Shown here: positions 17,434 to 59,313 of the stretch, in pieces | How the letters are laid out: every line of letters begins with the position of its first letter | Numbering within the stretch: the first letter of the stretch is position 1 | NCBI RefSeq assembly: GCF_019711495.1 | Contig: NZ_JAIGNM010000001.1 | Coordinates: 1,054,001-1,118,000, forward strand | DNA from: Qipengyuania xiamenensis | GTDB lineage: Bacteria; Pseudomonadota; Alphaproteobacteria; Sphingomonadales; Sphingomonadaceae | DNA: 64,000 bases | Direction: 5' to 3' | Position numbers and translations under genes: made by a program | The notes under the pieces: model-generated | What the model was told of the DNA's origin: nothing | What the model saw: the letters and a program-made list of their open reading frames with translations, nothing else | The model's database searches: none

Positions 17434-17436
17434 CCC

Positions 17437-40243: not shown

Positions 40244-40244
40244 C

Positions 40245-40547: not shown

Positions 40548-40551
40548 ACTT

Positions 40552-41184: not shown

Positions 41185-41274
41185 ATCGTACACCCTCCGT
41201 GCGGCCCCAATGGCCCTCATACATGACAGAAGGGTGACGTAAGCATGAATATGGTTAAATTGCGCCTAAACGAG

Positions 41275-41967: not shown

Positions 41968-43545
41968 GTGACCAATTTTCACCGTTCGCTTATTCTCGGC
42001 GCTTCCGCCATTGCCCTGGCCGGCTGCGGCGCAGACGAAATCGTCTCGCCCGGCACCGGCGGCAACGTCACCATCAACAATGGCGGTGGCGGAGGCAGCA
42101 CGCCTACTCCCACCCCGACTGCAGGCACCATGGTGACCCCGGCGGCCGGCTGCCCCACCATCAGCGACCCGCAAGGCCTTACCGACGACGGCACGATCTC
42201 AGGTCCGACCGGGGAATACCGTGTCTGCACCATGCCGGCACGCTTCAACGCCAGCGCCACGCTGCCCTATATCGAAGGCCTGCTTTACCGCATGAACGGC
42301 CGCGTCGATGTCGGCACCGACGGTGGCCCGTCGCCGACCAACTCGGACGGTCTCGACGACACCGATGTCGAACTGACCATCGAACCTGGCGTCATCATCT
42401 ACGCATCGGGTTCGAGCTTCCTCAACGTCAACCGCGGCAACACGATCAACGCCGTCGGCACCGCCGACCGCCCGATCATCTTCACCAGCCGCGACAACGT
42501 CCTCGGCCTCAATAACGACAGTTCGTCGGGCCAGTGGGGCGGCGTCGTCCTTTCGGGCCGCGCACCGGTCACCGACTGCATCGCATCCGGCGCAACGCCG
42601 GGTACGGTGAACTGCGAACGCCAGGTCGAAGGCGCGGCCCAGCCCGCCATCTTCGGCGGCGCGACGCCGGGCGACAGCTCGGGCACGATGAGCTACGTCC
42701 AGATCCGCTACTCGGGCTTCGTCCTGTCGGGCGACAGCGAACTCCAGTCGCTGACCACCGGCGGCACCGGTTCGGGCACCGTCCTCAACAACATCATGAG
42801 CTACAACAGCTCGGATGACGGGGTCGAATTCTTCGGCGGCCGCGTGAATGTGAAGAACATGATCGTGGTTGGTGCAGAGGATGACAGCATCGACACCGAC
42901 ACCGGCGTGAAGGCCAACATCCAGTACCTCATCGCGATCCAACGCCCCGGCGCCGGTGACACGATCATCGAGGCCGACAGCGACAACGCCTTCAACGACA
43001 GCACGCCGCGCCAGAACACGCGCATCTCGAACGCCACCTTCGTCCACCAGAAGGCCGACGACCAGGTCGTTCGTATCCGCGGCTTCGCCGACTACTCGAT
43101 CGCCAACTCGGTCATCGTATCGAACCAGGGCACGCCCTGCCTTCGCATCGACGGTCCGGAAGAGCTGAACCGCGCCGCTAATGCCGGCATCGACGAAGCC
43201 GGCCCGGTCGCCTTCGACTCGCTGGTTCTCGACTGTGCCTCGTCGCCCTTCCGCGACAGCTCGGGCGTTACGGCAGCGGAAATCGAAACCCGCTTCAACG
43301 CCGGCACCAACACCAACTCGGCATTCACCAACACGCTGGCTTCGCTCTTCCTCAACGGAAGCAACGAAGACGCTGTACCGGTATTCGACGTGACCGCATG
43401 GGCCAGCTTCTTCGAGCTTCCCGCCCGCATCGGTGCCGTCTTCACCGAGAACGCAGACTGGGTGAACGGCTGGACCTGCAACTCGAGCACGGTGACGTTC
43501 GACAGCAACGTCAGCGATTGCACCAGCCTGCCGGTCTACAACTGA
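41968..43545 (+). CDS. Lipoprotein with predicted beta-helix, partner of the next TonB receptor
   Basis: 525 aa, GTG start with TTGAGGGG upstream. The signal peptide ends in lipobox LAGC with acylated Cys20. A low-complexity linker (Gly-rich, then TPTPTPT) follows. The body has many short G/N/D-rich strands (VIIYASGSSFLNVNRGN, GTADRPIIFTSRD, SGQWGGVVLSGRAP, SSDDGVEFFGGRVNVKN) typical of parallel beta-helix repeats. Paired Cys occur at several places. I recognise no enzyme motif. Lipoproteins of this type stand beside TonB receptors in Caulobacter- and sphingomonad-type bacteria; the ligand is unknown. A strong terminator lies after it. Confidence 0.78.
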   Translation: MTNFHRSLILGASAIALAGCGADEIVSPGTGGNVTINNGGGGGSTPTPTPTAGTMVTPAAGCPTISDPQGLTDDGTISGPTGEYRVCTMPARFNASATLPYIEGLLYRMNGRVDVGTDGGPSPTNSDGLDDTDVELTIEPGVIIYASGSSFLNVNRGNTINAVGTADRPIIFTSRDNVLGLNNDSSSGQWGGVVLSGRAPVTDCIASGATPGTVNCERQVEGAAQPAIFGGATPGDSSGTMSYVQIRYSGFVLSGDSELQSLTTGGTGSGTVLNNIMSYNSSDDGVEFFGGRVNVKNMIVVGAEDDSIDTDTGVKANIQYLIAIQRPGAGDTIIEADSDNAFNDSTPRQNTRISNATFVHQKADDQVVRIRGFADYSIANSVIVSNQGTPCLRIDGPEELNRAANAGIDEAGPVAFDSLVLDCASSPFRDSSGVTAAEIETRFNAGTNTNSAFTNTLASLFLNGSNEDAVPVFDVTAWASFFELPARIGAVFTENADWVNGWTCNSSTVTFDSNVSDCTSLPVYN

Positions 43546-43559
43546 TCGACCAAATCCGG

Positions 43560-43597
43560 GGCGGGGGGGCGCAGTATCGCGCCCTCCCGCCTTTTTT
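43560..43597 (+). terminator. Rho-independent terminator between lipoprotein and TonB receptor genes
   Basis: A 13-bp stem with one G-T pair (ggcgggggggcgc 43560-43572 and gcgccctcccgcc 43579-43591) is followed by TTTTTT at 43592-43597. It stands only 44 bases before the receptor start codon, so the receptor either depends on read-through or has its own promoter in a very short space. Confidence 0.9.
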
Positions 43598-43640
43598 CGA
43601 ATTGTACCGAATTTCGACCTGAATTGAGGGGGTCAACACG

Positions 43641-46397
43641 ATGTCCACTGGCAAGCAGCTTGCAGGGCTGCTCCTGCTCTCCACCGCCCTGACCTTTCCC
43701 GCTGCCGCCATCGCGCAGAGCACCGGGGCGGAGGGGCCGCCGCCGACCGAAGAGGAAGTTCCCGACCAGGAACTGACCGATGACGTAGAAACGGCCAATG
43801 AAACCGTTCCCGGCGATGTCGCGGAAGAAGGGCAGGCCGAACCGGATATCTCGATCCCGGGCGGCACCATCGTCGTCACCGGACGCCGCACCCGCGACGT
43901 CACCCGCGCCTCGCCGCAAGTTGTCACCGTGCTCGATACGGCCAGCATCGCGCGTACCGGTGAAGGCGACATCGCCGGCGCACTGGGTCGCGTCACCGGC
44001 CTTTCGCAGCAGGGCAACGGCCTCGTCTACGTCCGCGGCCTCGGCGACCGTTATTCACTGGCGCTCCTCAACGGCCTGCCGCTCCCCTCGCCGCAGCCGC
44101 TTAGCCGCGTGGTCCCGCTCGACATCTTCCCGACCAGCGTGGTCGCATCGAGCCTAGTGCAGAAGACCTATTCGGCCAACTTCCCGGGCGAATTCGGCGG
44201 CGGTGTGATCAACCTCACCACCCGCGCGATCCCGACCGAAAGCTTCCTCACCGTCAGCGGCTCGCTCTCGGGCGACAGCGAGACCACCTTCGGCCCCGGC
44301 TACACCTATTTCGGCGGCGACTGGGACTGGACCGGTTTCGACCAGGGCCGCCGCGACGTCGGCAATTACAGTGCTCTGCAGGGCTTCTTCGACAGCGGCG
44401 CCCGCATCAATGACGATAGCGTCGATACGCGCGCCATCCTGCAGGACCTGAACGATCCGAACCTCTACCTCGTGCAGAAGATCGGCGACCTTCCGGCGAA
44501 TTTCTCCGCAGGCGTAACTGCAGGCACCTCGTTCGACGTCGGTTCCGACGGGCTGCTGGGCATCATTGCCACCGGTTCGATCAGCAACAAGTGGCGCAAC
44601 CGCTTCATCACGAAGCAGACCGCCGTGAATGCCGATCTCGATCTCGACACCGACTTCAACGAGTTCGTCACCGACAACCGCGTGCTGGTGAACAGCCTGC
44701 TCGGCTTCGGTCTCGAAATTGGTGAACACAAGTTCCGCCTCACCAACCTCTACATCCACGACACGCTCAAGCGCGCCTCGCTGGAAGAGGGAACCGACTT
44801 TCAGGACGGCGACGATTCGCTGATCCAGGACACCTCGTGGTTCGAACGCCAGCTGTTCAACAGCCAGTTCGTCGGCGAGCTCGAATTCGGCGACCTCTCG
44901 GTGGACCTTCGCGGCGGCTATGCGCAGACCAAGCGTGAAGCGCCTTTCGAATGGACCTTCGAATACGTCCGCACCAACAATGCCAACGATCCGTTCGGCG
45001 ACGTCTATCTCAACACGCTCGATCCGCAGCGTGGCGGTGCGATCGTCTCCTTCTCCGACCTCAAGGAAGACCTGTGGTACGGCGGGATCGACGTCGGCTA
45101 CATCGTGAACGACTGGCTCAATGCCACCGTCGGCTATGCCTATACCGACACCGACCGCTTCTCGACCCGCCGCGAATTCGACATTCGTGCTTCCTCGGGC
45201 TTCCCCGATGCCTTCGGCGCGTTCCGCCCTGACAACCTTCTCGGTGATGCGCTGATCGACTTTGCATTCGATCCCGACGCGCAGGCGGCAGGCGGCATCG
45301 GCCCCTATAATTTGACCATCTTCGAAACCACGCAGTCGGACCCGGCCTTTGCCGCGGCGCTGGAAATCCATGCCGCTTACGGCAAGGTCAATATCCGCCC
45401 CTTCGACACGCTCTCCATCGATGTCGGCGTGCGTTACGAGGATGCGGTCCAGTCGGTCGAGGCAGTCGAGGTCTTTGCAGAGCCTCTCGGTTCGACCAGC
45501 GGCACGCTGCTAGAGAACGATTACTGGCTGCCCGGCGGTACGCTGACCTGGGAGCTGACCGACAGCCTCCAGTTCCGCGCCAGCGCCTCGAAGACCATCG
45601 CTCGCCCGCAGTTCCGCGAACTGATCTTCCAGACCTATTTCGATCCGGAAACCAACCGCCAGTTCAACGGCAACCCGCGCCTCGTCGACAGCGAGTTGAC
45701 GAACTACGAAGCGCGTCTCGAATATTACATCGGCGGCGGCAGCCGTGCGAGCGTGGCCGGTTTCTACAAGGAAATCGAAAACCCGATCGAGGTCTTCACC
45801 AGCTTCTCGGACAACGAGATCATCAGCGGCTTCGCCAATGCCCCGAGTGCCGAGCTGTTCGGCGGCGAGGCAGAGCTGCAGTACAATTACGATCTCATGG
45901 ACCTTGGCGGCTGGTTCGACAGCCAGCAGCTCGTGTTGATCGCGAACTACACCTACACCCAGTCGGAAATCAAAGTCGGACCTGACGACATCGCCAGCGT
46001 CTTCCCCTTTGCCGACCAGCCGGCGACCAACTTCTTCGATGACGGCGTTCCGCTGACCGGCCAGTCCGACCACCTGGTGAACCTCCAGCTCGGCCTCGAG
46101 GATCTCGATCGCCTGAGCCAGTTCACCGTGCTGCTCAAATACGCCAGCGAACGTGTGACCAGCCGCGGCGCAGGCCCCCTGCCCGACATCATCGAAGAAC
46201 CGGGCCTCACGCTCGATTTCGTGGTCCGCCAGGGCTTCGAGGTGTTCGGTGACAAGGAACTGGAACTGAAATTCGAGGCCCGGAACCTGACCGGTCGCGA
46301 CCACGAGGAATTCCAGAGCAACGGCACCAACCGGATCGACATCAACAGCTACGATGTGGGCCGCAGCATTAGCCTGGGCGCATCGATCAAGTTCTGA
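43641..46397 (+). CDS. TonB-dependent receptor paired with the lipoprotein
   Basis: 918 aa. The signal peptide (MSTGKQLAGLLLLSTALTFPAAAIAQ in outline) precedes an acidic N-terminal extension (about 27-75, EEEVPDQELTDDVETANETV) that is unlike most receptors. The plug follows (VVTVLDTASIARTGEGDIAGAL, then YVRGLGDRYSLALLNGLPLP near 125-145, FGGGVINLTTRAIPTE near 190). The barrel ends with the aromatic LGASIKF. The ATG at 43641 has GAGGGGG upstream. No TonB box is certain by eye; the VVTGRRTRD segment is the best candidate. Confidence 0.92.
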   Translation: MSTGKQLAGLLLLSTALTFPAAAIAQSTGAEGPPPTEEEVPDQELTDDVETANETVPGDVAEEGQAEPDISIPGGTIVVTGRRTRDVTRASPQVVTVLDTASIARTGEGDIAGALGRVTGLSQQGNGLVYVRGLGDRYSLALLNGLPLPSPQPLSRVVPLDIFPTSVVASSLVQKTYSANFPGEFGGGVINLTTRAIPTESFLTVSGSLSGDSETTFGPGYTYFGGDWDWTGFDQGRRDVGNYSALQGFFDSGARINDDSVDTRAILQDLNDPNLYLVQKIGDLPANFSAGVTAGTSFDVGSDGLLGIIATGSISNKWRNRFITKQTAVNADLDLDTDFNEFVTDNRVLVNSLLGFGLEIGEHKFRLTNLYIHDTLKRASLEEGTDFQDGDDSLIQDTSWFERQLFNSQFVGELEFGDLSVDLRGGYAQTKREAPFEWTFEYVRTNNANDPFGDVYLNTLDPQRGGAIVSFSDLKEDLWYGGIDVGYIVNDWLNATVGYAYTDTDRFSTRREFDIRASSGFPDAFGAFRPDNLLGDALIDFAFDPDAQAAGGIGPYNLTIFETTQSDPAFAAALEIHAAYGKVNIRPFDTLSIDVGVRYEDAVQSVEAVEVFAEPLGSTSGTLLENDYWLPGGTLTWELTDSLQFRASASKTIARPQFRELIFQTYFDPETNRQFNGNPRLVDSELTNYEARLEYYIGGGSRASVAGFYKEIENPIEVFTSFSDNEIISGFANAPSAELFGGEAELQYNYDLMDLGGWFDSQQLVLIANYTYTQSEIKVGPDDIASVFPFADQPATNFFDDGVPLTGQSDHLVNLQLGLEDLDRLSQFTVLLKYASERVTSRGAGPLPDIIEEPGLTLDFVVRQGFEVFGDKELELKFEARNLTGRDHEEFQSNGTNRIDINSYDVGRSISLGASIKF

Positions 46398-46420
46398 GGA
46401 ACCCTCCTCGGACGACTAAA

Positions 46421-46454
46421 GGGGGCCGCTTCAGCAAGAAGCGGCCCCTTTTTT
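46421..46454 (+). terminator. Rho-independent terminator after the TonB receptor
   Basis: An 11-bp stem, ggggccgcttc (46422-46432) and gaagcggcccc (46438-46448), with a 5-base loop and TTTTTT at 46449-46454. Confidence 0.93.
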
Positions 46455-46471
46455 GTGCTCAGTTCAGAAAG

Positions 46472-47146
46472 TCAGTGGCTGTCGTAGACGTAGCCGAGCG
46501 AGCGCACGGTCCGGATTGGTTCGCCGGCCCCGACATTGCGCAAGGCGCGACGCAGGCGTCCGATCCACACATCGACGGTGCGTTCGTCGATCGGCGGATC
46601 CTGCTTGCCCAAACCGTCGATCAGCTCGTTGCGACTGAGCACGCGGTCCGCGTTTTCGGCGAAGAAACGCAGCAAGCGGAATTCATTGGGCCGCAGCGTG
46701 ATGGGCTTGTCGTCCCAACGCGCCTGCAGGGCTGGCAAATCGATCTCGAGATCGCCCAGCTTGAAGGGCCTCGATCCGACCTGCGCGATACGGCCTGTGC
46801 CGAGCGCAAGGACGCGGTCGAGAACAAGTGTACGATCGACCGGGCCGACCACGTAATCGTCTGCACCGGCAGCCAGTGCGCGCCGCTTGTCTTCGGCATC
46901 GCAGCTTTCGAGGACCATGGTGACATGCGCGTCCGTTGTCCGCGGATCGGCGCGCAAACGACGGCACATCTCGAGGCCCGACAGGTCGTCGAGGACCCAG
47001 TCCACGAATGCGCAGACGGATCCTTCGATCAGGCGCTGCGGTCCTGCCGAAGTGAGGTGGCCGAATGTATAGCGCACCTCGCCATTGTCGAAGTCGTCGA
47101 ATGCGTCGACCTCTTCGGCAGTCATCAGAATATTGATCACGGCCAC
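46472..47146 (-). CDS. OmpR/PhoB-type response regulator with a degenerate receiver
   Basis: 224 aa. The C-terminal winged helix (about 128-222) is clear: ITLRPNEFRLLRFFAEN, SRNELIDGLG, and the recognition helix ERTVDVWIGRLRRAL with the wing IRTVRSLGYVYDS. The receiver half (1-115) keeps an Asp in the phosphorylation position (Asp49 in FVDWVLDD), but the N-terminal acidic pair is absent (ILMTAEEV). The conserved Lys before Pro is Gly101 (DYVVGPVD instead of KPF). It may act without phosphotransfer. It stands between the lipoprotein/TonB pair and the oxidoreductase operon; its upstream region carries Pho-box-like repeats. Confidence 0.85.
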   Translation of the reverse strand: MAVINILMTAEEVDAFDDFDNGEVRYTFGHLTSAGPQRLIEGSVCAFVDWVLDDLSGLEMCRRLRADPRTTDAHVTMVLESCDAEDKRRALAAGADDYVVGPVDRTLVLDRVLALGTGRIAQVGSRPFKLGDLEIDLPALQARWDDKPITLRPNEFRLLRFFAENADRVLSRNELIDGLGKQDPPIDERTVDVWIGRLRRALRNVGAGEPIRTVRSLGYVYDSH

Positions 47147-47239: not shown

Positions 47240-48262
47240 TCAGCCGTTTTTCAGCGTCACCTTGCCGAACGACGGAGCTGTGGAGACAACGCCGACAGGC
47301 TTCTTGGGAAGGTAGGGTTTTTCGAGCCGTTCGACCTCTTCGTCGGTCAGGTCGAGCGACATCGCATCGACCGCCGCACCGATGTGTCCGGGCTTGGTCG
47401 CTCCGATAATCGGGGCGGTAATGCCCTTGGCGAAATGCCACGCCAGCGCAACGGTTGCACGGGACGTACCGCGCTCTTCTGCAATCGCCCCGACTGCCTC
47501 GATCACTTCGCGATCGGCATCGACATTCTGCGTGTATAGCGTCTTGCCGAAACCATCCGTCTCGCTGCGAACCGTGCTTTCATCCCATGCGCGGGCGAGC
47601 TTTCCGCGGGCGAGCGGCGACCAGGGAATGATCGCAACGCCCTGGTCTTCGCAGAGCGGGATCATCTCGCGTTCTTCTTCGCGGTAAAGCAGGTTCACGT
47701 GGTTCTGCATCGAGATGAAAGACGTCCATCCCATGCTGCGCGCCACTTCCTGCGCCTTGGCGAACTGCCACGCGGCCATGGAGGATGCGCCTATGTAGCG
47801 CGCCTTGCCGGACTTCACGATGTCATGAAGCGCCTCAATCGTCTCTTCGATCGGGGTCGAGGGATCCCAGCGGTGAATCTGGAACAGGTCGACATAATCC
47901 ATCTTGAGACGGCCGAGGCTGTCGTCGATCGCCTGGAACAGGCTCTTTCTCGAATTACCTCCCGCATTGGGCGTATTGCGCCATGGCAGGAAAGCCTTGG
48001 TGGCGAGCACGATCTCGTCGCGATGTGTGAATTCGGGCAGCAGCTTGCCGACGACTTCTTCCGAAGCCCCTTTCGAATACATGTTGGCGGTGTCGAAGAA
48101 GTTGATACCCGCCTCGACAGCCTCGCGGATGAAGGGACGGCTTTCGTCTTCGCCCAGCACCCAGTCGCCATGCCAGCCCCTGGTCGTATCGCCATAGCTC
48201 ATGCAGCCGAGGCACAGGCGCGATACCTTGAGGCCGCTGGGTCCTAAGTTGACGTATTCCAC
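47240..48262 (-). CDS. Aldo/keto reductase
   Basis: A 340-aa NADPH-dependent carbonyl reductase with a TIM barrel. The N-terminal pattern RLCLGCMSYGD, the catalytic Asp/Tyr motif FFDTANMYSKGASEE near 55-70 (Tyr is the acid/base) and WHGAIRP-type residues are visible. The active-site Lys sits in LATKAFLPW near 87, and the NADPH-binding C-terminal region has IIPWSPLARGKLAR near 220. It is related to the YajO/IolS branch. It ends the leftward six-gene run after the halogenase; spacing to the SDR gene is only 4 bases. Confidence 0.88.
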   Translation of the reverse strand: MEYVNLGPSGLKVSRLCLGCMSYGDTTRGWHGDWVLGEDESRPFIREAVEAGINFFDTANMYSKGASEEVVGKLLPEFTHRDEIVLATKAFLPWRNTPNAGGNSRKSLFQAIDDSLGRLKMDYVDLFQIHRWDPSTPIEETIEALHDIVKSGKARYIGASSMAAWQFAKAQEVARSMGWTSFISMQNHVNLLYREEEREMIPLCEDQGVAIIPWSPLARGKLARAWDESTVRSETDGFGKTLYTQNVDADREVIEAVGAIAEERGTSRATVALAWHFAKGITAPIIGATKPGHIGAAVDAMSLDLTDEEVERLEKPYLPKKPVGVVSTAPSFGKVTLKNG

Positions 48263-48266
48263 CGCC

Positions 48267-48998
48267 TCAGTTCCCCACGCTCAGGCCGCCGTCGACGCTG
48301 ATCGTCTGACCGACGACGAAGTCGGCAAGCGGCGAGGCAAGGAACAGCGCAGCCCCTGCCATGTCCTCTGGCAGGCCCAGCCGTCCGCGCGGCGTGGCAG
48401 CGATGGTCTGCTTCTGGAACTTCTCGTCCTTCAGGAACACGTCATTGATTTTGGTATGGACGTAGCCCGGGGCGATGCCATTCACCCTGATGCCTTCCGC
48501 GCCGAAGGCAACGCCGAGGGACTTCACCATGCTGATCGCGCCCGCCTTGCTCGCACCATAGGCCGGGTTGCCGATAAGGCCGCGATAGCCGCCGATCGAG
48601 CTCACGATAATCAGTGAACCGCCGGTATCCGCCAACTTCTGGCGCGTCGCATTCGCGCAGTCGAGCAGGCTGTCGAGATTGACCTCCATCACCGCGTCCC
48701 AGCCCTCGCGGGTGAACTCTTCGCGGCCATAGCGCGCAATGCCCTGACACAGCACCACCACGTCGAGCGTATCGGGCCAGTCGAAAGCATCGACCGCGTC
48801 GCGGTCCGACACATCGAGCGAGTGGAAGGAAAGGCCTTCCATATCGCTATCGGGATAGTCCTCGGCAGAGCCGCGTGTACCCGTCACGTGGACGGTCGAA
48901 CCAGCCTTGCGGAACCCCTGCGCGATGCCGTTCCCGATCCCGCTCGTGCCCCCCACCACGAGGACGGTCTTGCCGGAATAATCGAGCGGATCGGTCAT
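48267..48998 (-). CDS. Short-chain dehydrogenase/reductase
   Basis: 243 aa, classical SDR. The NAD(P)-binding TGxxxGIG appears as VVGGTSGIGNGIA near 14-27 and the catalytic Ser in IIVSSIGG near 130. The active-site Y-x-x-x-K is YGASKAG near 147, with the PGYVHTKI segment after it. The substrate is unknown; it sits between an acyl-CoA dehydrogenase and an aldo/keto reductase, so a catabolic carbonyl/alcohol step is plausible. Confidence 0.9.
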   Translation of the reverse strand: MTDPLDYSGKTVLVVGGTSGIGNGIAQGFRKAGSTVHVTGTRGSAEDYPDSDMEGLSFHSLDVSDRDAVDAFDWPDTLDVVVLCQGIARYGREEFTREGWDAVMEVNLDSLLDCANATRQKLADTGGSLIIVSSIGGYRGLIGNPAYGASKAGAISMVKSLGVAFGAEGIRVNGIAPGYVHTKINDVFLKDEKFQKQTIAATPRGRLGLPEDMAGAALFLASPLADFVVGQTISVDGGLSVGN

Positions 48999-49008
48999 AA
49001 TACTCTCC

Positions 49009-50151
49009 TCAGATTGAGCGGCTGACGACTTCTTTCATGATCTCGTTCGTGCCGCCGTAGATGCGCTGGACGCGGGCATCGCGCCAAAGCCGCGCGATGG
49101 GATATTCGTTCATGTACCCCGCACCGCCATGCAACTGGAGCGCGGCGTCGCAGCACTCCCACTGAAGGTCGGTGTGCCAGAGCTTGGCAGCGCTGGCCTC
49201 GTCCGTGGTCAGTTCGCCCTTCAAGTGACGCTGGATCGCCCAGTCGAGATGCGCCCAGCCGACCTGCAGCTTGGCGGCAAGATCGGCGAGCGTGAACTTG
49301 GTGTTCTGGAACTCGAATACGGTCTTGCCGAAAGCCTTGCGGTCCTTGGTGAAATTCACCGCCTCGTCGAAAGCACGCTGCGCCCCGGCCTGCGCACCGA
49401 CGGCAATCGACAGGCGCTCCTGCGGCAATTCTTCCATCAGGTGGATGAAGCCACGCCCTTCGCCGCCCAGCAGGTTCTCCTTAGGCACGCGGCAGTCATT
49501 GAAGAACAACTCCGACGTATCGGCGGCGTGCTGGCCGATCTTGTCGAGATTGCGCCCGCGCTCGAAGCCCGGAGTGCCTGCATCGACGAGGATCAGCGAT
49601 GTACCTTTCGCACCTTGCGATGGATCAGTCTTGCAGACCACGATCACGCAATCGGCATTCTGCCCGTTGGTGATGTAAGTCTTCGAGCCGTTGATGACCC
49701 ATTCGTCACCATCGAGCTTCGCCGTTGTGCGCACGCCCTGCAGGTCCGAGCCTGCGCCCGGTTCGGTCATGGCAATTGCGGTGATGATGTCGCCCGACAC
49801 CATGCCCGGCAAATACTTCTGCTTCTGCTCTTCGGTGCCGAGGCGTTCGAAGTAGTTGACCGTGATGTCGTTCTGCAGGGTGAAGCCGGCAGACGAGCCC
49901 ATGTAGCTGAGTTCCTCGGCAATCACGCAGTTGAAGCCGAAGTCGAGGCCCAAGCCGCCGTTCTCCTCGGCAACGGTCGGGCAGAGCATGCCCGCTTCGC
50001 CGAGCGCCTTCCACGCCTCGCGCCCGACGATGCCCTCTTCCTCGTGCTTGTCGAGATAGGGGACCATGTGTTCGGCAAAGACCTTGCGCACCGTGTCGCG
50101 GAAAGCCTCGTGGTCATCGTTATAGGCGAAGCGCTTGCTTGTATCGAGCAT
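49009..50151 (-). CDS. Acyl-CoA dehydrogenase
   Basis: 380 aa, FAD-dependent. Family signatures are AMTEPGAGSDLQGVRTTAK near 128 and the C-terminal QLHGGAGYMNEYPIARLWRD near 332-351, followed by RIYGGTNEIMKEVVSR. The terminal motif has the YGGTNEIM form rather than YEGT, which suggests the catalytic base lies on the other helix, as in isovaleryl- or long-chain enzymes. The start MLDTSKRFAYNDDHEAF at 50151 was chosen; the longer frame is non-coding. It is 14 bases after the nitronate monooxygenase-like gene. Confidence 0.92.
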   Translation of the reverse strand: MLDTSKRFAYNDDHEAFRDTVRKVFAEHMVPYLDKHEEEGIVGREAWKALGEAGMLCPTVAEENGGLGLDFGFNCVIAEELSYMGSSAGFTLQNDITVNYFERLGTEEQKQKYLPGMVSGDIITAIAMTEPGAGSDLQGVRTTAKLDGDEWVINGSKTYITNGQNADCVIVVCKTDPSQGAKGTSLILVDAGTPGFERGRNLDKIGQHAADTSELFFNDCRVPKENLLGGEGRGFIHLMEELPQERLSIAVGAQAGAQRAFDEAVNFTKDRKAFGKTVFEFQNTKFTLADLAAKLQVGWAHLDWAIQRHLKGELTTDEASAAKLWHTDLQWECCDAALQLHGGAGYMNEYPIARLWRDARVQRIYGGTNEIMKEVVSRSI

Positions 50152-50165
50152 CGGTGGCGGCTCCC

Positions 50166-51143
50166 TCAGGCTTTCTGCATGCCGGCAAGGCGCTGGGTGA
50201 TGATTTCCTCCGCCTGAGCCATGATCCTGTCGATCAGTTCCTGGCAGGTCGGGATATCGTTGATGAGGCCTGCCACCATGCCGCAAGACCATGCGCCTGC
50301 ATCCATATCGCCTTCGGTCATGATGCGCGGATAGACGCCTGCGACCTGTTCGATGATGTCTTCGAACTTGAGGTCGTCGCCCTTGTCCTTCTCGATCTTG
50401 AGCAGTTCCTCGACCGCGTCATTGGTCATTACGCGCTCGGTATTGCGCAGCGGGCGCATGACGAGGCGGGTGTCGAGTTCGGAAGCCGCGACGATGGCCT
50501 TCTTCACGTTCTCGTGAACCGGCGCTTCCTTTGTCGCGATGAAGCGCGTGCCCATGTTCATGCCGTCCGCACCCATGGCGAGCGATGCCACGAGGCTCCG
50601 CCCGTCGGCCATGCCGCCGCTGGCGACGAAGGGGATTTCCAGCTCGTCCGCAGCGCGCGGGAGCAGGATCATGTTCGGAATATCGTCCTCGCCCGGGTGA
50701 CCGCCGCATTCGAAGCCATCGACCGAGACCGCGTCGCAGCCGATCGACTGCGCCTTCAGGCTGTGGCGAACGCTGGTGCACTTGTGGATCACCTTGACGC
50801 CCGCATCCTTGAAGAAGGGCATGACCTGCGCCGGGTTGTTGCCCGCAGTCTCGACGATTTTCACGCCGCCTTCGATGATGGTGCGCACGAGGCCCGGGTA
50901 ATCGGGCGCATTGACTGTGGGCAGGAAGGTGAGGTTCACGCCGAAGGGCTTGTCGGTCATGTCCTTGCAGCGCGCGATCTCGTTGGCGAGCTTTTCGGGC
51001 GTGCCCTGCGTGAGGCCGGTGATGATGCCGAGTCCGCCCGCATTGGATACCGCTGCCGCCATTTCCGCAAAGCCGACATAGTGCATGCCGCCCTGGATGA
51101 TCGGGTGCTTGATGCCGAACATTTCGGTGATGCGGGTTTTCAT
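50166..51143 (-). CDS. Nitronate monooxygenase family flavoprotein
   Basis: A 325-aa FMN-binding TIM-barrel protein. The FMN-phosphate loop and the NMO/FabK signature are visible: HPIIQGGMHYVGFAEMAAAV near 13-32, then NAGGLGIITG near 34-43, VDGFECGGHPGEDD near 137-150, and VASGGMADGRSLVASLAMGADGM in outline near 173-195. It may oxidise nitronates or act as a related enoyl reductase; the sequence alone does not decide. The start MKTRITEMFG at 51143 was chosen. Confidence 0.88.
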   Translation of the reverse strand: MKTRITEMFGIKHPIIQGGMHYVGFAEMAAAVSNAGGLGIITGLTQGTPEKLANEIARCKDMTDKPFGVNLTFLPTVNAPDYPGLVRTIIEGGVKIVETAGNNPAQVMPFFKDAGVKVIHKCTSVRHSLKAQSIGCDAVSVDGFECGGHPGEDDIPNMILLPRAADELEIPFVASGGMADGRSLVASLAMGADGMNMGTRFIATKEAPVHENVKKAIVAASELDTRLVMRPLRNTERVMTNDAVEELLKIEKDKGDDLKFEDIIEQVAGVYPRIMTEGDMDAGAWSCGMVAGLINDIPTCQELIDRIMAQAEEIITQRLAGMQKA

Positions 51144-51203
51144 GGGGCCTCTCCTCAAGTCTGATTGCGTTTTGCAACCGGTATCGGGGGGAGAGGGGAG
51201 AGT

Positions 51204-51794
51204 CTAGCGCTTCGCGACCCGCTCCAGCGCCTCGAGCAACTGCTGCCCCCGTTCCGTAAGGGAAAGCTTTTCGCCCGCTTCTTCGGCCAGTCCTTCGCGC
51301 TCCAGATCGGCGCCGGTCGGTGCGCGCATGATGCGACCGTACTGGCCGCCGTGGTAGATCAGCGGCTCTGCCTCGCGCCGGTCGAAATCGATGACCTCGC
51401 CGAGGAAGATGGCGTGATCGCCGCCCTCGTATTCGAAGCGCGCGCGGCAACCGAAGCGCGCAGCACAGCCTTCGATAAGCGGAGCGCCCTCGGGGCCGTC
51501 GGCCAATGCAAGACCATCGAACTTGTCGACACCGGGCGTGGCAAAACGGTCGGACATCGGCTGCTGATCGGCAGCAAGCACGTGGACCGCCCAGTTCTCC
51601 GCATCGCGGAAGACCGGGAGGCTGCCGGAATGAAGCGACAGGCTCCACAGCACCATCGGCGGATCCAGGCTGACCGAATTGAAGCTGTTTGCGGTAAGGC
51701 CCACCGGCGCGCCCGACGCATCGCGCGCGGTGACGATGGTCACGCCGGTGGCGAATGAGCCGAGCGCGTTGCGGAAAGCGAGGGGATCGAACAT
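51204..51794 (-). CDS. Flavin reductase family protein
   Basis: 196 aa. FRNALGSFATGVTIVTARD near residues 7-25 and VGLTANSFNSVSLDPPMVLWSLS in outline near 31-53 are the flavin reductase domain start. Its middle part carries FAGEVxxF-type strands (HAIFLGEVIDF near 135). The last 25 residues (KLSLTERGQQLLEALERVAK) look like a winged-helix fragment, an unusual tail. It stands 41 bases downstream of the flavin-dependent halogenase and could supply it with reduced FAD; this is inference from position. Confidence 0.85.
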   Translation of the reverse strand: MFDPLAFRNALGSFATGVTIVTARDASGAPVGLTANSFNSVSLDPPMVLWSLSLHSGSLPVFRDAENWAVHVLAADQQPMSDRFATPGVDKFDGLALADGPEGAPLIEGCAARFGCRARFEYEGGDHAIFLGEVIDFDRREAEPLIYHGGQYGRIMRAPTGADLEREGLAEEAGEKLSLTERGQQLLEALERVAKR

Positions 51795-51835
51795 CTTCGC
51801 AGTCCGCTAGAACGCCTGTGTGCGAAGGGCAAGCG

Positions 51836-53347
51836 TCAGGCAGCGACCTTGGGCGCCGGGCAGTAGCGCTCGAGGTATTCCTTGTGCCCCGGCATGCGCT
51901 GGACGAGCCACTGGATCGACTTGGCCATTTCGTCGATTTCCTTGGCCGAAGCGTCGGCGACGCCATCCGCCATCGGGCTGGTGCCGTCCATCGTGATGCC
52001 CTGGCCGAGCATTACCGCGGCCCAGCTGGTGGTGGTGAAGAGTTCGTCTTCCTCGCGGAACACCTGTCCGTTCGCCTTGAACACCTCGATCTTCTCGGTG
52101 AGGCTGTCGGGCACGTCCATCGTGCGGCAGTAATTCCAGAATTCGGAATCGTCGCGGCGCGTGGCCTTGTAGTGCAGGATCAGGAAGTCGCGAATGCGCT
52201 CGTACTCGCGGACCGTAAGGCGGTTGAAAGTACTCGCCTGCGCTTCCGTGACACCGTCGAGCGACAGGGTAGCGATCAGCTTGTTCACGCCGGTGTTGAT
52301 CAGGTGGATCGAAGTGCTCTCGAGCGGCTCCATGAAGCCCGAGGCCAGACCAAGCGCGACTACGTTCTTGTTCCAGAACTTCTTCCGGCGACCGGTCACG
52401 AAACGCAGGTGGTTCGGATCGGCAGTGGGCTTGCCCGCCATGTTGGCGATCAGGATATCGGTCGCCTCGTCGGCTTCCATGAACTGGCTGCAATAGACAT
52501 GGCCGTTACCGTTGCGGTGCTGCAGCGGCACCTGCCACTGCCAGCCGGCCTTGTGTGCGGTCGCCTTGGTGAACGGCGGCGGCGGCGAGCCGTCGTCGCG
52601 ATTGCATGGAAGGGCAACCGCGCGATCGCACGGCAGGTAGTGGGTCCAGTCTTCATAGCCGGTCTCGAGCGCCTGCTCGATGAGAAGGCCGCGGAAGCCG
52701 GTGCAATCGATGAAGAAGTCGGCCGCGATTTCCTTGCCGCTGTCGAGCGTCAGCTTGGTGACGTAACCGCTCTCGCCGTCGAGGGCGACGTCCTTGACGA
52801 TCCCCTCGTGCCGCACGACGCCGCGCTGCTCGGCATATTTGCGCAGGTATTGCGCATAGGCGGTCGCGTTGATGTGGTAGGCGTAGTTGATCGGCGGCAG
52901 GTCGTCGCGCGCATAATCTTCTGTGCGCGAGAACTTGCCGTAATAGGCCGCCATCGTCTCGAGGTTGAACAGCTGCAGCGGGCGCTTGTCGCCGCGCTCG
53001 TGCATCTTGTGCCAGACCTGGTGGAAGCCGATCCCGCCGATGTCGTAGCCATAGGCACCGAAGGGGTGGATGTAGCTCTCGCCCACCTGGCCCCAGTTCT
53101 CGAACTGGATGCCGAGCTTGAAGCTGCCCTGCGTAAAGGACAGGAAATCGCGCTCGCTGATGTTCAGCGCCTGGTTGAATTCGACGAAGGGCGGGATGGT
53201 TGCCTCGCCGACACCGACAGTGCCGATCTGTTCCGATTCCACCACCGTGATCGCGAGATTGCGCCCGTCACGGATACGGGACAGCGCCGCCGCTGCCATC
53301 CAGCCTGCAGTACCCCCGCCCACGATTACAATATGTTCGATAGCCAT
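51836..53347 (-). CDS. Flavin-dependent tryptophan halogenase-like protein
   Basis: 503 aa. The FAD-binding GGGTAG is at residues 10-15. The halogenase-specific lysine corresponds to Lys77 in GSFKLGIQF, equivalent to the active-site Lys79 of PrnA. The W-x-W-x-x-P fingerprint is WQWQVP at 269-274, and the EPLESTSIHL segment follows. All catalytic landmarks are present. Related genes in Caulobacter and sphingomonads lie beside TonB receptors, but the true substrate is unknown. It is divergent from the TonB receptor and shares a LacI-type operator with it. Confidence 0.9.
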   Translation of the reverse strand: MAIEHIVIVGGGTAGWMAAAALSRIRDGRNLAITVVESEQIGTVGVGEATIPPFVEFNQALNISERDFLSFTQGSFKLGIQFENWGQVGESYIHPFGAYGYDIGGIGFHQVWHKMHERGDKRPLQLFNLETMAAYYGKFSRTEDYARDDLPPINYAYHINATAYAQYLRKYAEQRGVVRHEGIVKDVALDGESGYVTKLTLDSGKEIAADFFIDCTGFRGLLIEQALETGYEDWTHYLPCDRAVALPCNRDDGSPPPPFTKATAHKAGWQWQVPLQHRNGNGHVYCSQFMEADEATDILIANMAGKPTADPNHLRFVTGRRKKFWNKNVVALGLASGFMEPLESTSIHLINTGVNKLIATLSLDGVTEAQASTFNRLTVREYERIRDFLILHYKATRRDDSEFWNYCRTMDVPDSLTEKIEVFKANGQVFREEDELFTTTSWAAVMLGQGITMDGTSPMADGVADASAKEIDEMAKSIQWLVQRMPGHKEYLERYCPAPKVAA

Positions 53348-53420
53348 CCCGAAAACCTATGCCAGCAATTCCGTCCTGTTGCCAGACCGCAACGGTCCTG
53401 TGGTAGGGGAATATTCTAAC

Positions 53421-53449
53421 TTGTGAACGCTCACAACCCTCGATATGTT
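53421..53449 (+). promoter_or_regulatory. LacI-type operator overlapping a sigma-70 promoter
   Basis: TTGTGAACGCTCACAA (53421-53436) is a 16-base palindrome with one mismatch and the central CG typical of LacI-family operators. Its left half is also a -35 box (TTGTGA), followed by 17 bases and TATGTT (53444-53449), so a bound repressor would block the promoter of the TonB receptor. It also lies 74 bases from the divergent halogenase gene. Confidence 0.65.
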
Positions 53450-53503
53450 ACAGTCAGATTGCGGGATTCGTCCTGACAATTACGCTTGGGATAGGGAGGA
53501 ACA

Positions 53504-56500
53504 ATGTCTCAGAAAACCACCGGCGTCGCGCCATTTTCGCGTCGCATTGCAGCGTTGACCACTGCATCCGGTCTCGCACTCGTGGCCGCGCAGCCTGCTT
53601 GGGCGCAGGATGCCGACACGGCCGAAGAACCGGCTGCCGAAGAGGTCGATGAAGAAAACGTCATCATCGTTTCGGGCTTCCGCGAGTCGCTCCGCACCGC
53701 GCAGGACTTCAAGGAACGCGCCGACACCGTAGTCGACGTCATCACGGCCGAAGACATCGGCGCACTGCCCGACCGCTCCGTGGCGGAAACGCTGCAGCGC
53801 GTCCCCGGTGTGAACATCGGTCGCTTCGAAAAGACCTCGGATCCGACCCGTTTCTCGGTCGAAGGTACCGGCGTAATCATCCGCGGCCTTCCCTACACGC
53901 GCTCGGAACTCAACGGACGCGACATCTTCTCGGCCAATGGCGGCCGTGTCCTGAGCTTCGAAGACGTTTCGCCCGAACTCGTGGGCCGTGTCGAAGTCTA
54001 CAAGAACAGCACCGCCGATATGATCGAAGGTCATATCTCGGGCATGGTGAACCTCGTCACGCGCAAGCCGCTCGACAATCCCGGTCTTAATCTCGCCGGC
54101 TCGATCGAAGCCAATTACGGCGATCTGCGCGAAAAGTGGTCGCCCACTTTCAACATCCTTGCTTCCGACACGTTCGATTCCGCCGCCGGCACCTTCGGCC
54201 TGCAGCTGAGCTACTCGAACTCGTCGCTCAAGAGCCGTACCGACGCATCGCAGATCGTTGATCCCTGCTATCGTTCGACCACCGACCTCACCAGCGGCTG
54301 CGTCCGTGCCCAGGTCGTCAATTCGGGCGGTTTCCAGGGCGATATCCTGCTCGGCCCGGATGAATTCCCGGTTGCAGGAACGGGCATCGTGCCCCAGTTC
54401 GCCAACGTCCGCTCGACCACGCTCGACCGCGACCGCGAAGCGATCTCGGGCGTAGCGCAGTTCGAATCCGCCGATGGCGGCCTGCTGATGACGCTGGAAT
54501 ACCTGCGTTCGGAAACCGACTTCTTCACCGAAGAATATGCCATCCTCGGCCGTATCGACGACGGCGTCACTTCGCCGGTCCCGCGTTCCGGTTCGACCTG
54601 GACCTTCGACGAGAACGGTAACTTCGAAAGCGGTATCCTGACCTTCGGCGAAGGCGATGCCTATGCAACGCCGTTCGGCCTGGGCGGTGTCCCGACCGAT
54701 ACGCTGCGCTTCCTTCGTGGCACCAATTCGGTCACGCAGGATCTCTCGCTCGACGTCGACATGGAATTCACCGAGCGTTTCCGCGGCAGCGTGGACATGC
54801 AGTATGTCAATTCCAAGCTGACCCGCGATTCCGTATTCGGTGCGATGAGCACCTGGTCGGATATCGCCATCGATCTCAGCGGTGACATCCCGGATATCCA
54901 GTTCCTGGCTCCTCCGGGCGCCCCGGCTGACTACTTCAGCTCGGGCTTCTACACCTACTATTGGTTCGGTCTCGACAGCCGCGAGAAGAACGAAGGCGAG
55001 CTCTTCAGCCTTGCCGGTGATTTCGAATACGACATCAGCGACGACGGCTTCTTCAAGACGGCCAAGTTCGGTGCTCGCTGGGCTGCGCGCGATCGCGTGA
55101 ACCGCAACACCAACTTCAGCACCTGGGGTAACCTCTCGGCTCCTTGGGCCGGTCGTGGCGGCTGTGCGCCCTGGGGCGAAGGTCCGGGCTGCTTCTCGGG
55201 CCCGGGACCCTATGTTCCCGACTGGGCCGGCTTCACGCCGGGTCGGTTCTACACCGGCCTGCCGGGCCAGGAATTCGCGATCGCAGGCGGCGCCTACGTC
55301 GACGAATTCCCCAATGCTTCGCAGTTCGTCAGCCCGTTTGCCGACAACTTCCAGCGCGGCAACGCCTCGACCCCGATCGCAGGTGGTTCGGCCTGGTTCT
55401 ACGGCGGTGACGATTTCCTTCAGGAATATCTCGACGGCGTAACCGACCAGCAGTGGGACGACATTTCGACCTTCGGCCAGTCGCCCGAGCGCTTCAATCT
55501 CGGCGTTAACGGCCGTACCGGATGCGACATCGACGGTGTCTTCTGCCCGAACGAGATTTCGGACGTTACCGAAATCACCAAGGCAGCGTATGCTCGTGTC
55601 GACTACGGTCTGGACATGGCTGGCGGCTGGACGCTCGCTGGTAACATCGGCCTGCGCTACGTGCAGACCGAAGTCAGCAACGACTCGCTGGTCCGGTTCC
55701 CTGATCCCGAGCAGTTCGACGCTGTCGCCAACGGCGGCAACGGCGACGGCGTCGTGCAGGTTTCGGAGATCACCGACTCCTGTCCGCCCACGCCTCCGGG
55801 AGGCTTCGCGCCGGACATCCTCTACTGTCAGCTGACGGGTGCGCGCCTGGCCGAATACGCCTCGCTGTTCACCGGTGAGTTCGTGCCGGATACGCAGGAC
55901 ATCACGTTCGATCACTTCCTGCCGGCGTTCAATATCCGCCTCGACAGCGGAACGGGCTGGGTCATCCGCGGTGCGGTATCGAAGGCGATTTCGCGTCCCG
56001 ACCTCAACCTGTTCAATGCAGGCGGTACGCTCGGCTTCAGTGGCAATGTCGATAGCGGTCCGCTGCTGTCGATCCGCACGGGTAACCGGAATATCCGGCC
56101 TATCGAATCGTGGAACTACGATCTGAGCGCCGAATGGTATTTCGACGACGTCGGCTCGCTTACCGCTGCGTTCTTCATCAAGGACATCGACGGTATCGTG
56201 CAGAACGGCCTCGGCCTGGTGAACTACACGGCACCCAGCGGCCTTTCGCAGGATGTCATCATCAACGGTCCGGCGAACGATATCGATGGTACGCTGAAGG
56301 GCGTCGAACTCGCCTACCAGCAGACCTATGATTTCCTTCCCGGCCTGCTGAGCGGACTGGGTTCGCAGTTCTCCTACACCTATGTGGATGGCGGCGACTT
56401 CCCGAACCCGAACATCTCGAGCATCGGTTCTCCCTCGGTCAATTCCGACGGCGCCCCGATCAACGCGGGTCCGTTCGTCAGCCAGCTGCCGCTGGCCGGC

Positions 56501-56830
56501 ATTTCGGAGCACACCGTCAACGCTACGGTGTTCTACGAGAAGGGACCGATCTCGGCTCGTGCCGCCTACAACTGGCGTAGCGAGTTCGTGGTCACCGTCA
56601 GGGACGACCTCTTCCCGTTCTCGCCGATCTACCAGGAATCGGGTGGACAGCTTGATGCGTCGATCTTCTACAGCGTGACCGACAACATCAAACTGGGTGT
56701 CCAGGGCGTGAACCTTCTCGACGAAGTTACGCAGCTCTCGACCGTGGTCGACTACGACGGAACGCGCGTGAACAGCGCAGCATTCCGTAACGACCGCCGC
56801 TACACCTTCATCGCTCGCTTCAACTTCTGA
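53504..56830 (+). CDS. TonB-dependent receptor of the Xanthomonas/Caulobacter type, candidate glucan oligosaccharide importer
   Basis: 1108 aa. The signal peptide ends in QPAWAQ near residue 35, followed by an acidic stretch and the TonB-box-like ENVIIVSGFRESLRTAQ. The plug has VITAEDIGALPDRSVAETLQRVPGVNI in outline and FSVEGTGVIIRGLPYTRSELNGRD near 115-140. The barrel ends in TFIARFNF. This matches the TIGR01782-like receptor family (from memory of the pattern). It opens the sugar locus and lies opposite the halogenase. The LacI operator overlaps its promoter. Confidence 0.93.
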   Translation: MSQKTTGVAPFSRRIAALTTASGLALVAAQPAWAQDADTAEEPAAEEVDEENVIIVSGFRESLRTAQDFKERADTVVDVITAEDIGALPDRSVAETLQRVPGVNIGRFEKTSDPTRFSVEGTGVIIRGLPYTRSELNGRDIFSANGGRVLSFEDVSPELVGRVEVYKNSTADMIEGHISGMVNLVTRKPLDNPGLNLAGSIEANYGDLREKWSPTFNILASDTFDSAAGTFGLQLSYSNSSLKSRTDASQIVDPCYRSTTDLTSGCVRAQVVNSGGFQGDILLGPDEFPVAGTGIVPQFANVRSTTLDRDREAISGVAQFESADGGLLMTLEYLRSETDFFTEEYAILGRIDDGVTSPVPRSGSTWTFDENGNFESGILTFGEGDAYATPFGLGGVPTDTLRFLRGTNSVTQDLSLDVDMEFTERFRGSVDMQYVNSKLTRDSVFGAMSTWSDIAIDLSGDIPDIQFLAPPGAPADYFSSGFYTYYWFGLDSREKNEGELFSLAGDFEYDISDDGFFKTAKFGARWAARDRVNRNTNFSTWGNLSAPWAGRGGCAPWGEGPGCFSGPGPYVPDWAGFTPGRFYTGLPGQEFAIAGGAYVDEFPNASQFVSPFADNFQRGNASTPIAGGSAWFYGGDDFLQEYLDGVTDQQWDDISTFGQSPERFNLGVNGRTGCDIDGVFCPNEISDVTEITKAAYARVDYGLDMAGGWTLAGNIGLRYVQTEVSNDSLVRFPDPEQFDAVANGGNGDGVVQVSEITDSCPPTPPGGFAPDILYCQLTGARLAEYASLFTGEFVPDTQDITFDHFLPAFNIRLDSGTGWVIRGAVSKAISRPDLNLFNAGGTLGFSGNVDSGPLLSIRTGNRNIRPIESWNYDLSAEWYFDDVGSLTAAFFIKDIDGIVQNGLGLVNYTAPSGLSQDVIINGPANDIDGTLKGVELAYQQTYDFLPGLLSGLGSQFSYTYVDGGDFPNPNISSIGSPSVNSDGAPINAGPFVSQLPLAGISEHTVNATVFYEKGPISARAAYNWRSEFVVTVRDDLFPFSPIYQESGGQLDASIFYSVTDNIKLGVQGVNLLDEVTQLSTVVDYDGTRVNSAAFRNDRRYTFIARFNF

Positions 56831-56890: not shown

Positions 56891-56982
56891 TGTAAAACAC
56901 CAAGATGCCCTGCTGGCGGGTGCCTGCGTGATGTTACGGGATCATGCGCACGCCATTTTCGCATGGGATGGGGGATGTGAAT

Positions 56983-58044
56983 ATGGGTCGGCGGCGCCAG
57001 TCGGTGACAATCAAGCACGTGGCAGCCGATGCTGGGGTTTCGCTCCAGACGGTGAGCCGCGTCATCAACAACGAACCGAACGTGCGCCCCGCAATGAAAG
57101 AGCGGGTCCAGGCGAGTATCGACAAGCTGGGATACGTCCCCTCGATCGCCGCCCAGCGCATGAGCGGATCGCGTTCCTACCTGATCCTTGCGATCAACGA
57201 CCGCGACCTGACCATCGCCGACTGGAAGGCACGCGAAGGCCGCGACTGGGTCGACCAGATGCTGCTCGGCGGCATGCTGACCTGTGCCGAACATGGCTAC
57301 CGCATGCTGATCGAACTGGTCGACACGCATAGCGATCACGTGGAACGTGAGCTTAGTGCGGCGATCGCTGCGCTGCAACCGGACGGCGTCATCCTGACCC
57401 CGCCCCACTCCGAAAATGCGCTCATCACCGGCCTGCTTGCCGAAAAGGGCATCCCGTTCGCGCGCATCGGCTCGAAACAGGAAGGCCCGGGCATCGCGAT
57501 GACCATGGGCGACAGCCACAATGCGCGGCTGGCGACCGACCATTTGATCGAGCTTGGACACGAGCGGATCGGCTTCATCGCCGGTCCGGAAGATTTCAGC
57601 CTGTCGGGTTGGCGTATGGAAGGCTGGGCCTCCGCGCTCGACGATGCAGGCTTTTCCTCCGAAGGCTTGTGCGAACGCGGTGATTTCGGGTTCGAAAGCG
57701 GCGCGAAGGCAGCCGAACGACTGCTCGACCGCGACCCTGCCCCCACGGCGATTATCGCCAGCAGCGACCAGATGGCGCTTGCCGTGCTGGAAGTCGCGCG
57801 CCGTCGCGGCTTGAACGTGCCGAAGGATCTCTCGCTGGTCAGCTTCGACAATTCGCCCATCGTGCGCTTCACCCAGCCTCCGCTGACGGCAATCGACCAG
57901 CCGATCGCCGCCACTGCGGCGCGTGCGGTAGAACTGCTCATCGATGCCCGCAAGAAACCCGCTCCGATCAAGCCCGTGCAAATCCAGGGCGAACTGGTGG
58001 TGCGCGGATCGACGGCGTCGGCCAGGGTAGATGCAGGAAACTGA
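56983..58044 (+). CDS. LacI family transcriptional regulator
   Basis: 353 aa. The N-terminal HTH (TIKHVAADAGVSLQTVSRVINNEPNVRP near 8-35, in outline) has the usual VSxxTVSRVLN form. The hinge helix is SIAAQRMSG, and the ligand-binding domain follows (LILAINDRDL, GVILTPPHSEN, FIAGPEDFSLSGWRMEG, then VSFDNSPIVRFTQPPLTAI near 275). The start at 56983 was selected among three in-frame ATGs because it precedes the HTH by seven residues and has GGGGG upstream. It overlaps the MFS gene by 14 bases. It probably represses the locus through the two operators seen at 53421 and 59269. Confidence 0.92.
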   Translation: MGRRRQSVTIKHVAADAGVSLQTVSRVINNEPNVRPAMKERVQASIDKLGYVPSIAAQRMSGSRSYLILAINDRDLTIADWKAREGRDWVDQMLLGGMLTCAEHGYRMLIELVDTHSDHVERELSAAIAALQPDGVILTPPHSENALITGLLAEKGIPFARIGSKQEGPGIAMTMGDSHNARLATDHLIELGHERIGFIAGPEDFSLSGWRMEGWASALDDAGFSSEGLCERGDFGFESGAKAAERLLDRDPAPTAIIASSDQMALAVLEVARRRGLNVPKDLSLVSFDNSPIVRFTQPPLTAIDQPIAATAARAVELLIDARKKPAPIKPVQIQGELVVRGSTASARVDAGN

Positions 58045-59268: not shown

Positions 59269-59284
59269 TTGATAACGTTCTCAA
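59269..59284 (+). promoter_or_regulatory. Second LacI-type operator, in front of the GH3 gene
   Basis: TTGATAACGTTCTCAA is a palindrome with one mismatch and a central CG. It agrees at 12 of 16 positions with the operator at 53421-53436. It lies 30 bases before the GH3 start codon. Confidence 0.65.
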
Positions 59285-59313
59285 TCGGGAGAGGACGCGG
59301 AGGGATGAGAGAC

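Follow-up and report, generated by a model that had tools for sequence, protein, structure and literature searches.

Gene content of the halogenase locus

The window analysed here is a 64,000-nucleotide stretch of the genome of the marine bacterium Qipengyuania xiamenensis (NCBI RefSeq assembly GCF_019711495.1, contig NZ_JAIGNM010000001.1, positions 1,054,001 to 1,118,000 of the forward strand), and its gene of interest encodes a flavin-dependent halogenase. The halogenase gene is divergent from a TonB-dependent receptor gene, which is followed by genes for a LacI-family regulator, a major facilitator superfamily (MFS) transporter and a glycoside hydrolase of family GH3. Five redox genes lie downstream of the halogenase on its own strand, and the initial annotation had combined all six into a redox operon headed by the halogenase. 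The features are listed below.

51836-53347, minus strand: BrvH/Xcc4156-type flavin-dependent halogenase, 503 amino acids (PF04820, 630 bits)
53421-53436: predicted operator TTGTGAACGCTCACAA, a 16-bp lac-like palindrome between the divergent halogenase and receptor genes
53504-56830, plus strand: TonB-dependent receptor (TIGR01782), neighbour of the halogenase by conserved synteny
56944-58044, plus strand: LacI-family regulator, probable repressor of the regulon
58031-59230, plus strand: MFS transporter
59269-59284: second operator-like palindrome TTGATAACGTTCTCAA, upstream of GH3
59305-61689, plus strand: GH3 beta-glucanase/glucosidase, with its start placed at the methionine of MRDMKAFW (an alternative to the start at 59254 in the list of open reading frames)
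61796-63268, plus strand: putative second MFS-type transporter, closing the sugar block
63377-64000, plus strand: inositol-monophosphatase-family gene running past the window end (family assigned through the homologue in locus L134)
51806-51832, minus strand: conserved promoter-like element of the flavin reductase, TTGCCC ... TAGC, within the 41-base gap between halogenase and reductase
51204-51794, minus strand: flavin reductase (PF01613), first gene of a probably separate redox cassette
50166-51158, minus strand: nitronate monooxygenase (NMO)-family protein of the cassette (PF03060; nearest solved structure PA1024)
49009-50148, minus strand: acyl-CoA dehydrogenase of the cassette (Pfam match; start chosen by us, the listed open reading frame starting at 50292)
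48267-48998, minus strand: short-chain dehydrogenase/reductase (SDR) of the cassette (Pfam match)
47240-48262, minus strand: aldo/keto reductase of the cassette (PF00248)

The six minus-strand genes belong to the families named initially, as their Pfam matches confirm, and are closely spaced, with gaps of 41, 45, 17, 10 and 4 bases from the halogenase to the aldo/keto reductase. Their divergence from a sugar-type receptor is equally clear. The halogenase is intact, as was also claimed: it contains G10, G12 and G15 of the GxGxxG motif (residues 10-15), K77, W269-x-W271-xx-P274 and E343-S-T, and thus has the GxGxxG and WxWxxP motifs and the catalytic Lys and Glu expected of PF04820 members. Among its orthologues (57 named loci with a halogenase identity of 60% or more), K77 is kept in 56, with Asn in L072, whereas E343, S344, T345, W269, W271 and P274 are kept in all 57; one orthologue (L081) has an internal stop.

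The genes are therefore real, and it is the unit that was probably drawn wrongly, with the halogenase belonging to the receptor and glucan genes and not to the head of a redox cluster. With a probability of roughly 0.78, we consider the halogenase a receptor-linked member of a LacI-type regulon for a beta-1,3-glucan (a laminarin-like algal sugar), transcribed separately from the redox cassette, which would be an independent neighbour beside which the glucan block sits. As far as sequence can carry this interpretation, it does so through the gene order, the conserved operator, the promoter-like element in front of the reductase and the alternative arrangements found in relatives.

Operator sites and the predicted glucan regulon

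The palindrome at 53421-53436 recurs within two mismatches in 46 of 55 orthologous loci (the 57 named loci minus two with missing starts), which was reached by 0 of 1100 composition-only shuffles. Its distance from the start codon varies between 87 and over 200 bases. Within the window alone, one site at two mismatches or fewer is at chance level (0.96 expected); it is the cross-species conservation that goes beyond chance. A related palindrome is present upstream of GH3 within three mismatches in 42 of 44 loci (shuffles 0), after removal of loci with a GH3 identity below 60% or with cut starts. Another precedes a distant GH16 gene (G000:C3:39282, with its site at G000:C3:39248) and its homologues, and was found within three mismatches in 22 of 30 rows, the own gene and second copies being included (shuffles 0.02). 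In the genome of the window, zero-mismatch sites of the regulon pattern occur only at the halogenase/receptor, GH3 and GH16 positions, and none is found elsewhere at one mismatch. Since the operator is conserved and related sites lie in front of GH3 and GH16, the halogenase most probably goes with the glucan regulon and not with the redox genes. The earlier suggestion that the operator is shared with the sugar locus thus gains support, and sugar control of the halogenase appears likely because the receptor has the same operator.

The LacI-family regulator has the recognition helix VSLQTVSRVI, and the operator arms match the half-site of the lac operator. As we read 24 hand-picked upstream regions in alignment, each TTGTGA arm may serve as a -35 box that is followed, at a distance of 17 bases, by an AT-rich hexamer, and this applies to either divergent gene. 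On the side facing the halogenase, some 23 bases away from the operator, many orthologous loci contain a further palindrome (TATGAACGTTCACA), which is unrecognisable in the window (53380-53420).

The GH16 enzyme is nearest to solved endo-1,3-glucanases/laminarinases, and GH3 to an exo-1,3/1,4-glucanase. A GH16 gene is found inside the locus, between LacI and the receptor, in 28 of 48 named loci; the example in L042 is laminarinase-like. The locus thus combines a LacI-family gene with conserved palindromes upstream of its genes, as in a LacI regulon, and by sequence similarity and shared sites a GH16 endo-1,3-glucanase and a GH3 exo-glucanase appear to be under the same control, as for laminarin use. 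Loci of the LacI type for beta-glucoside use hold GH3 enzymes. The window resembles the systems described, in the excerpts available, for BglR, LacI-family regulators of beta-glucoside use (PMC4052901), and for the predicted TonB transporter OmpBgl and inner-membrane BglT of Shewanella (PMC2996990). It differs from them in its halogenase, a word that the main texts of PMC4052901, PMC2996990 and PMC1790865 do not contain.

From these observations a course of events can be proposed. In the absence of an inducer, the LacI-family protein would bind 53421-53436 and thereby shut off receptor and halogenase together, as the two arms of this site may double as -35 boxes for the divergent promoters. 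The related sites at 59269 and G000:C3:39248 would mediate repression of GH3 and GH16. A glucan oligosaccharide would free the protein from the operator. The receptor would then import the glucan, GH16 and GH3 would cut it and the MFS proteins would take up the sugar, with the halogenase being made at the same time. Drawing FADH2 from any cellular flavin reductase, the halogenase would form hypohalous acid at FAD and hand it to K77/E343, and an electron-rich aromatic group may be halogenated in its predicted open site.

The redox cassette as a probable separate neighbour

The flavin reductase lies directly downstream of the halogenase in 12 of the 57 named loci and is not beside it in the other 45. 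In contrast, a TonB receptor gene is found within 800 bases upstream of the halogenase in 53 of 54 loci (L084 being the miss), counting loci with more than 1 kb of upstream sequence and imposing no orientation. Distribution over genomes was counted from the rows listed for the halogenase (66% identity or more) and the NMO protein (78% or more). Among 31 genomes with a halogenase orthologue, the own one included, the NMO gene is adjacent in 20 and elsewhere in seven, and four have no NMO row. Conversely, 36 of the 63 genomes with an NMO orthologue have no halogenase orthologue. The NMO-like protein itself is highly conserved (mostly 88-98% across genus rows, minimum 83%).

Three arrangements around the reductase-NMO genes were found among the fetched loci. 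In type 1, represented by the window, the halogenase stands opposite the receptor-LacI-MFS-GH3 block. Type 2 (fetched loci L126-L133, n = 8; 13 genomes by coordinates) keeps the same LacI (78-81% identity, 8/8), MFS (7/8) and GH3 (7/8; L133 ends before GH3), but has a different receptor, with 23-29% identity to the receptors of the window genome, and halogenases that are 25-50% identical to the first or second halogenase of that genome. A two-mismatch site between reductase and receptor is present in all eight; the one scanned locus, L126, also contains SapC and Cupin_8 genes, and no match to the flavin reductase was found in L130. Type 3 (L134, L136, L137, L143, L144 and L145) has neither sugar block nor halogenase, and its flavin reductase gene adjoins an inositol-monophosphatase gene 79-88% identical to the window gene at 63377. 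With the reductase beside the phosphatase in these six loci, the segment from the halogenase to the second MFS gene is therefore a block between two otherwise neighbouring genes.

The cassette also varies in composition, the acyl-CoA dehydrogenase, the SDR or both being missing in several loci (L034, L036, L136, L137, L145). In the Aurantiacibacter loci L042, L066 and L080 it is missing altogether, and the halogenase adjoins a response-regulator gene. Six further loci (L135, L138-L142), five of them from genomes with a halogenase elsewhere, contain the NMO gene with no match to the flavin reductase or the phosphatase and are uninformative on the site.

A pattern TTGCC...TAGC, whose TAGC ends 8-14 bases ahead of the ATG, precedes the reductase in all three arrangements; 33 of 36 distinct upstream sequences contain it (misses in L007, L118 and L131), as do 5 of 18,000 shuffles. 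The pattern was written after the sequences had been viewed, and all promoters named in this work are predicted from conservation. Given this promoter-like element of the reductase and the linkage in 12 of 57 loci, a six-gene redox operon headed by the halogenase was rejected as a functional unit. The claim that the reductase is a dedicated source of FADH2 is not supported either, with 45 of 57 orthologous halogenases having no such neighbour; the distribution rejects it as an obligate partner, and it may supply FADH2 like any other reductase. These results caution against reading a halogenase/reductase pathway out of adjacency, as the reductase found here has a history and a promoter-like element of its own.

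Several results weigh against the glucan-regulon reading. Nine of the 55 orthologues have no operator site within two mismatches, and eight of the 30 GH16 rows have none within three. The regulon pattern was built from the very sites it finds, and at two mismatches or fewer its matches do not outnumber those of the reversed control (15 rows versus 18); the genome-wide search for further members found none beyond the three places at zero to one mismatch, and the two-mismatch sites look like noise. The GH3 and GH16 sequences are no proof that laminarin is the sugar, as GH3 also matches 1,4-acting enzymes. On the side of the redox genes, no terminator-like site was found between halogenase and reductase, so that read-through into the cassette is possible, and a sigma-70 consensus scan of 51700-53600, which includes this gap, gave no promoter. 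Since the cassette adjoins the halogenase in 20 of 31 orthologue genomes, co-transcription by read-through could even be selected in this clade.

The lack of a terminator-like site and this adjacency would also suit the operon proposed initially, in which the adjacent reductase provides FADH2 for the halogenase and a halogenated metabolite is made or processed by the remaining enzymes. The short same-strand gaps of 4-45 bases agree with this proposal, and so do L135 and L138-L142, where an NMO gene away from the sugar block and phosphatase has no reductase beside it. Nevertheless, we consider it improbable in view of the conserved element in front of the reductase, the many halogenase loci and NMO genomes in which the partner is missing and the six type 3 loci that join reductase, NMO and phosphatase genes with no halogenase at all.

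The halogenase, its receptor and candidate substrates

The closest solved relatives of the halogenase by sequence are the Pseudoalteromonas sp. L11 enzyme 9LUQ (the best match, 504 bits), Xcc4156 from Xanthomonas (6Y1W) and BrvH from Brevundimonas BAL3 (6FRL). An AlphaFold model was built with 26 aligned sequences, 52-88% identical to the window protein, and had a mean predicted local distance difference test score of 89.4. It is closest to Xcc4156 (Z 55.0, root-mean-square deviation 1.6 over 491 residues, 46% identity), followed by 9LUQ (Z 51.8, 1.8 over 485 residues) and BrvH (Z 49.8, 1.8 over 487 residues, 43% identity), with tryptophan halogenases from Z 48.5 downward. The alignment with BrvH is gapless at substrate loops 1 and 2, whereas six extra residues are found near loop 1 relative to Xcc4156. 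PyrH, PrnA and RebH share the fold, the FAD motif, WxWxxP and the catalytic Lys and Glu, but are only about 31-34% identical, and in the loop region PyrH aligns with gaps of 15 and 4 residues in the window protein against one of 5 in PyrH, which leaves it about 14 residues longer, net, before the YAYH motif. The sequence and the modelled fold thus identify a BrvH/Xcc4156-type enzyme with predicted short substrate loops. In free-tryptophan halogenases the substrate is covered by a long loop that binds the amino and carboxyl groups of tryptophan, and assignment to this class was rejected for the window protein, with its short loops of BrvH length.

BrvH and Xcc4156, which share the catalytic Lys and Glu with the window protein, accept indoles but not tryptophan and have bromide as preferred or sole halide (PMC5945002, PMC7336383, both in excerpt). 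What BrvH and the Xanthomonas halogenases act on naturally was stated to be unknown (PMC7336383); in contrast, the present enzyme can be given a regulon and a neighbouring receptor.

The connection between halogenase and receptor was analyzed by a mirror-tree comparison. All five proteins are present in 32 of the 57 named loci. There, the distances of the receptor correlate at 0.42 with those of the halogenase and hardly (0.08-0.13) with those of LacI, MFS and GH3, and the receptor-halogenase partial correlation is 0.42 (0 of 500 permutations). In a set of 45 loci the receptor partials are 0.51 for the halogenase and 0.02 for LacI. They are 0.60 and -0.10 in the 18 loci with LacI adjacent to the receptor, whereas in the 27 loci where it is not adjacent they are 0.21 and 0.24, and the asymmetry is gone. 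Receptor-LacI correlations also exceed most permutations (1, 8 and 0 of 300). The test is supportive overall, but the asymmetry in favour of the halogenase is not general. Together with the joint difference of receptor and halogenases between types 1 and 2 at a constant LacI gene (8/8 fetched type 2 loci), these distances point, without proof, to a functional pairing of halogenase and receptor.

The two other halogenases of this genome lie in one starch-type locus (L123, G000:C2:344000-363500, locus positions 7819-19377), in the order receptor, halogenase, two GH13, GH97, halogenase. Sharing of the operator by this locus was rejected, as L123 has no site at two mismatches or fewer; with a looser pattern, one two-mismatch site appears 8 bases before a halogenase (G000:C2:360269). 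A further 40 paralogue loci from relatives (L176-L215, about 45-55% identity) were hand-picked down a ranked list, several coming from one genome and some being type 2 loci (L194, and L190 by gene order). A TonB receptor lies within 5 kb in 37 of the 40, in 32 of these within 200 bases (counts over open frames and so lower bounds, with no background rate for random genes beside them); the misses within the 5-kb range are L184, L190 (a 6.8-kb contig) and L210. Homologues of GH13, GH97, GH3 or GH16 are present in 32 of the 40, and Cupin_8 (JmjC-like) and SapC genes stand beside the halogenases in 12 and 6, respectively. K77 is lost (Arg) in 7 of 85 aligned open frames, in divergent copies next to other halogenases, and WxWxxP is often lost too. 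Clusters of several halogenases with a divergent K77-less copy include L178, L181, L187 and L197.

It is possible that the enzyme halogenates small aromatics arriving with algal glucan (phenols, indoles, glycosidic aglycones) for detoxification or for chemical interference against competitors, which would fit both membership in a beta-glucan regulon and the bromination of indole-type compounds by BrvH and Xcc4156 (PMC5945002, PMC7336383, in excerpt). However, same-family halogenases are also found in starch-type loci (GH13/GH97), where no aromatic aglycone is expected, and BrvH is reported to have low activity on indole, which its authors doubt to be the natural substrate (PMC5945002, in excerpt). 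That the halogenase modifies the receptor itself, or a protein or peptide partner of it, seems rather unlikely to us. The joint variation of receptor and halogenases, their partial correlation beyond LacI, MFS and GH3, and the SapC and Cupin_8 genes beside the halogenases agree with it, as do substrate loops of the length of those in BrvH, which are reported to be short and for which a peptide substrate was previously suggested (PMC7336383, in excerpt). Against it stand the loss of asymmetry in the 27 loci with a non-adjacent LacI and the receptor-LacI correlations, which likewise exceed most permutations; moreover, no modified protein is known, and linkage alone could move the pair. The lack of K77 or WxWxxP in some paralogues of such loci raises the question of whether the halogenase fold has been kept by an enzyme that has given up halogenation in the cell and acts as a flavin monooxygenase or oxidase. 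This is unlikely for the window protein, given the near-complete retention of K77, E343, S344, T345 and WxWxxP among its orthologues and the fact that Xcc4156 and BrvH, the first and third structural neighbours of the model, are brominases (PMC5945002, PMC7336383, in excerpt).

A wider proposal, which we regard as a long shot, is that the BrvH-type halogenases found in marine Alphaproteobacteria have no part in secondary metabolism and are instead dedicated to TonB glucan receptors as their partners. Each receptor would bring its own halogenase or halogenases, frequently accompanied by SapC and a Cupin_8 (JmjC-like) oxygenase, and these would chemically modify either the receptor or a protein specific to it upon induction of the glucan regulon. 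In the wider class, the best-known halogenases belong to natural-product pathways. A search of openly licensed papers found none linking BrvH-type halogenases to TonB glucan loci, which is weak evidence of novelty, and the term TonB is absent from the BrvH/Xcc4156 papers PMC5945002 and PMC7336383 and from PMC8269204. The glucan-regulon reading assigns the subfamily to glucan regulons with TonB receptors and predicts its operator, its receptor and the class of its inducer; in this way it turns the role of these halogenases into a question of growth conditions and offers a concrete route to the natural job of the BrvH type.

Two other regions of the window were noted. In many relatives another conserved block lies beside the cassette (window 41968-47146), made up of a response regulator, a TonB receptor and a 525-amino-acid protein that matches nothing in Pfam. 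Farther upstream, 37540-41220 contains what are presumably look-alikes of type IV secretion genes, for a VirB4-like ATPase, a VirB2-like small protein and a lytic transglycosylase.

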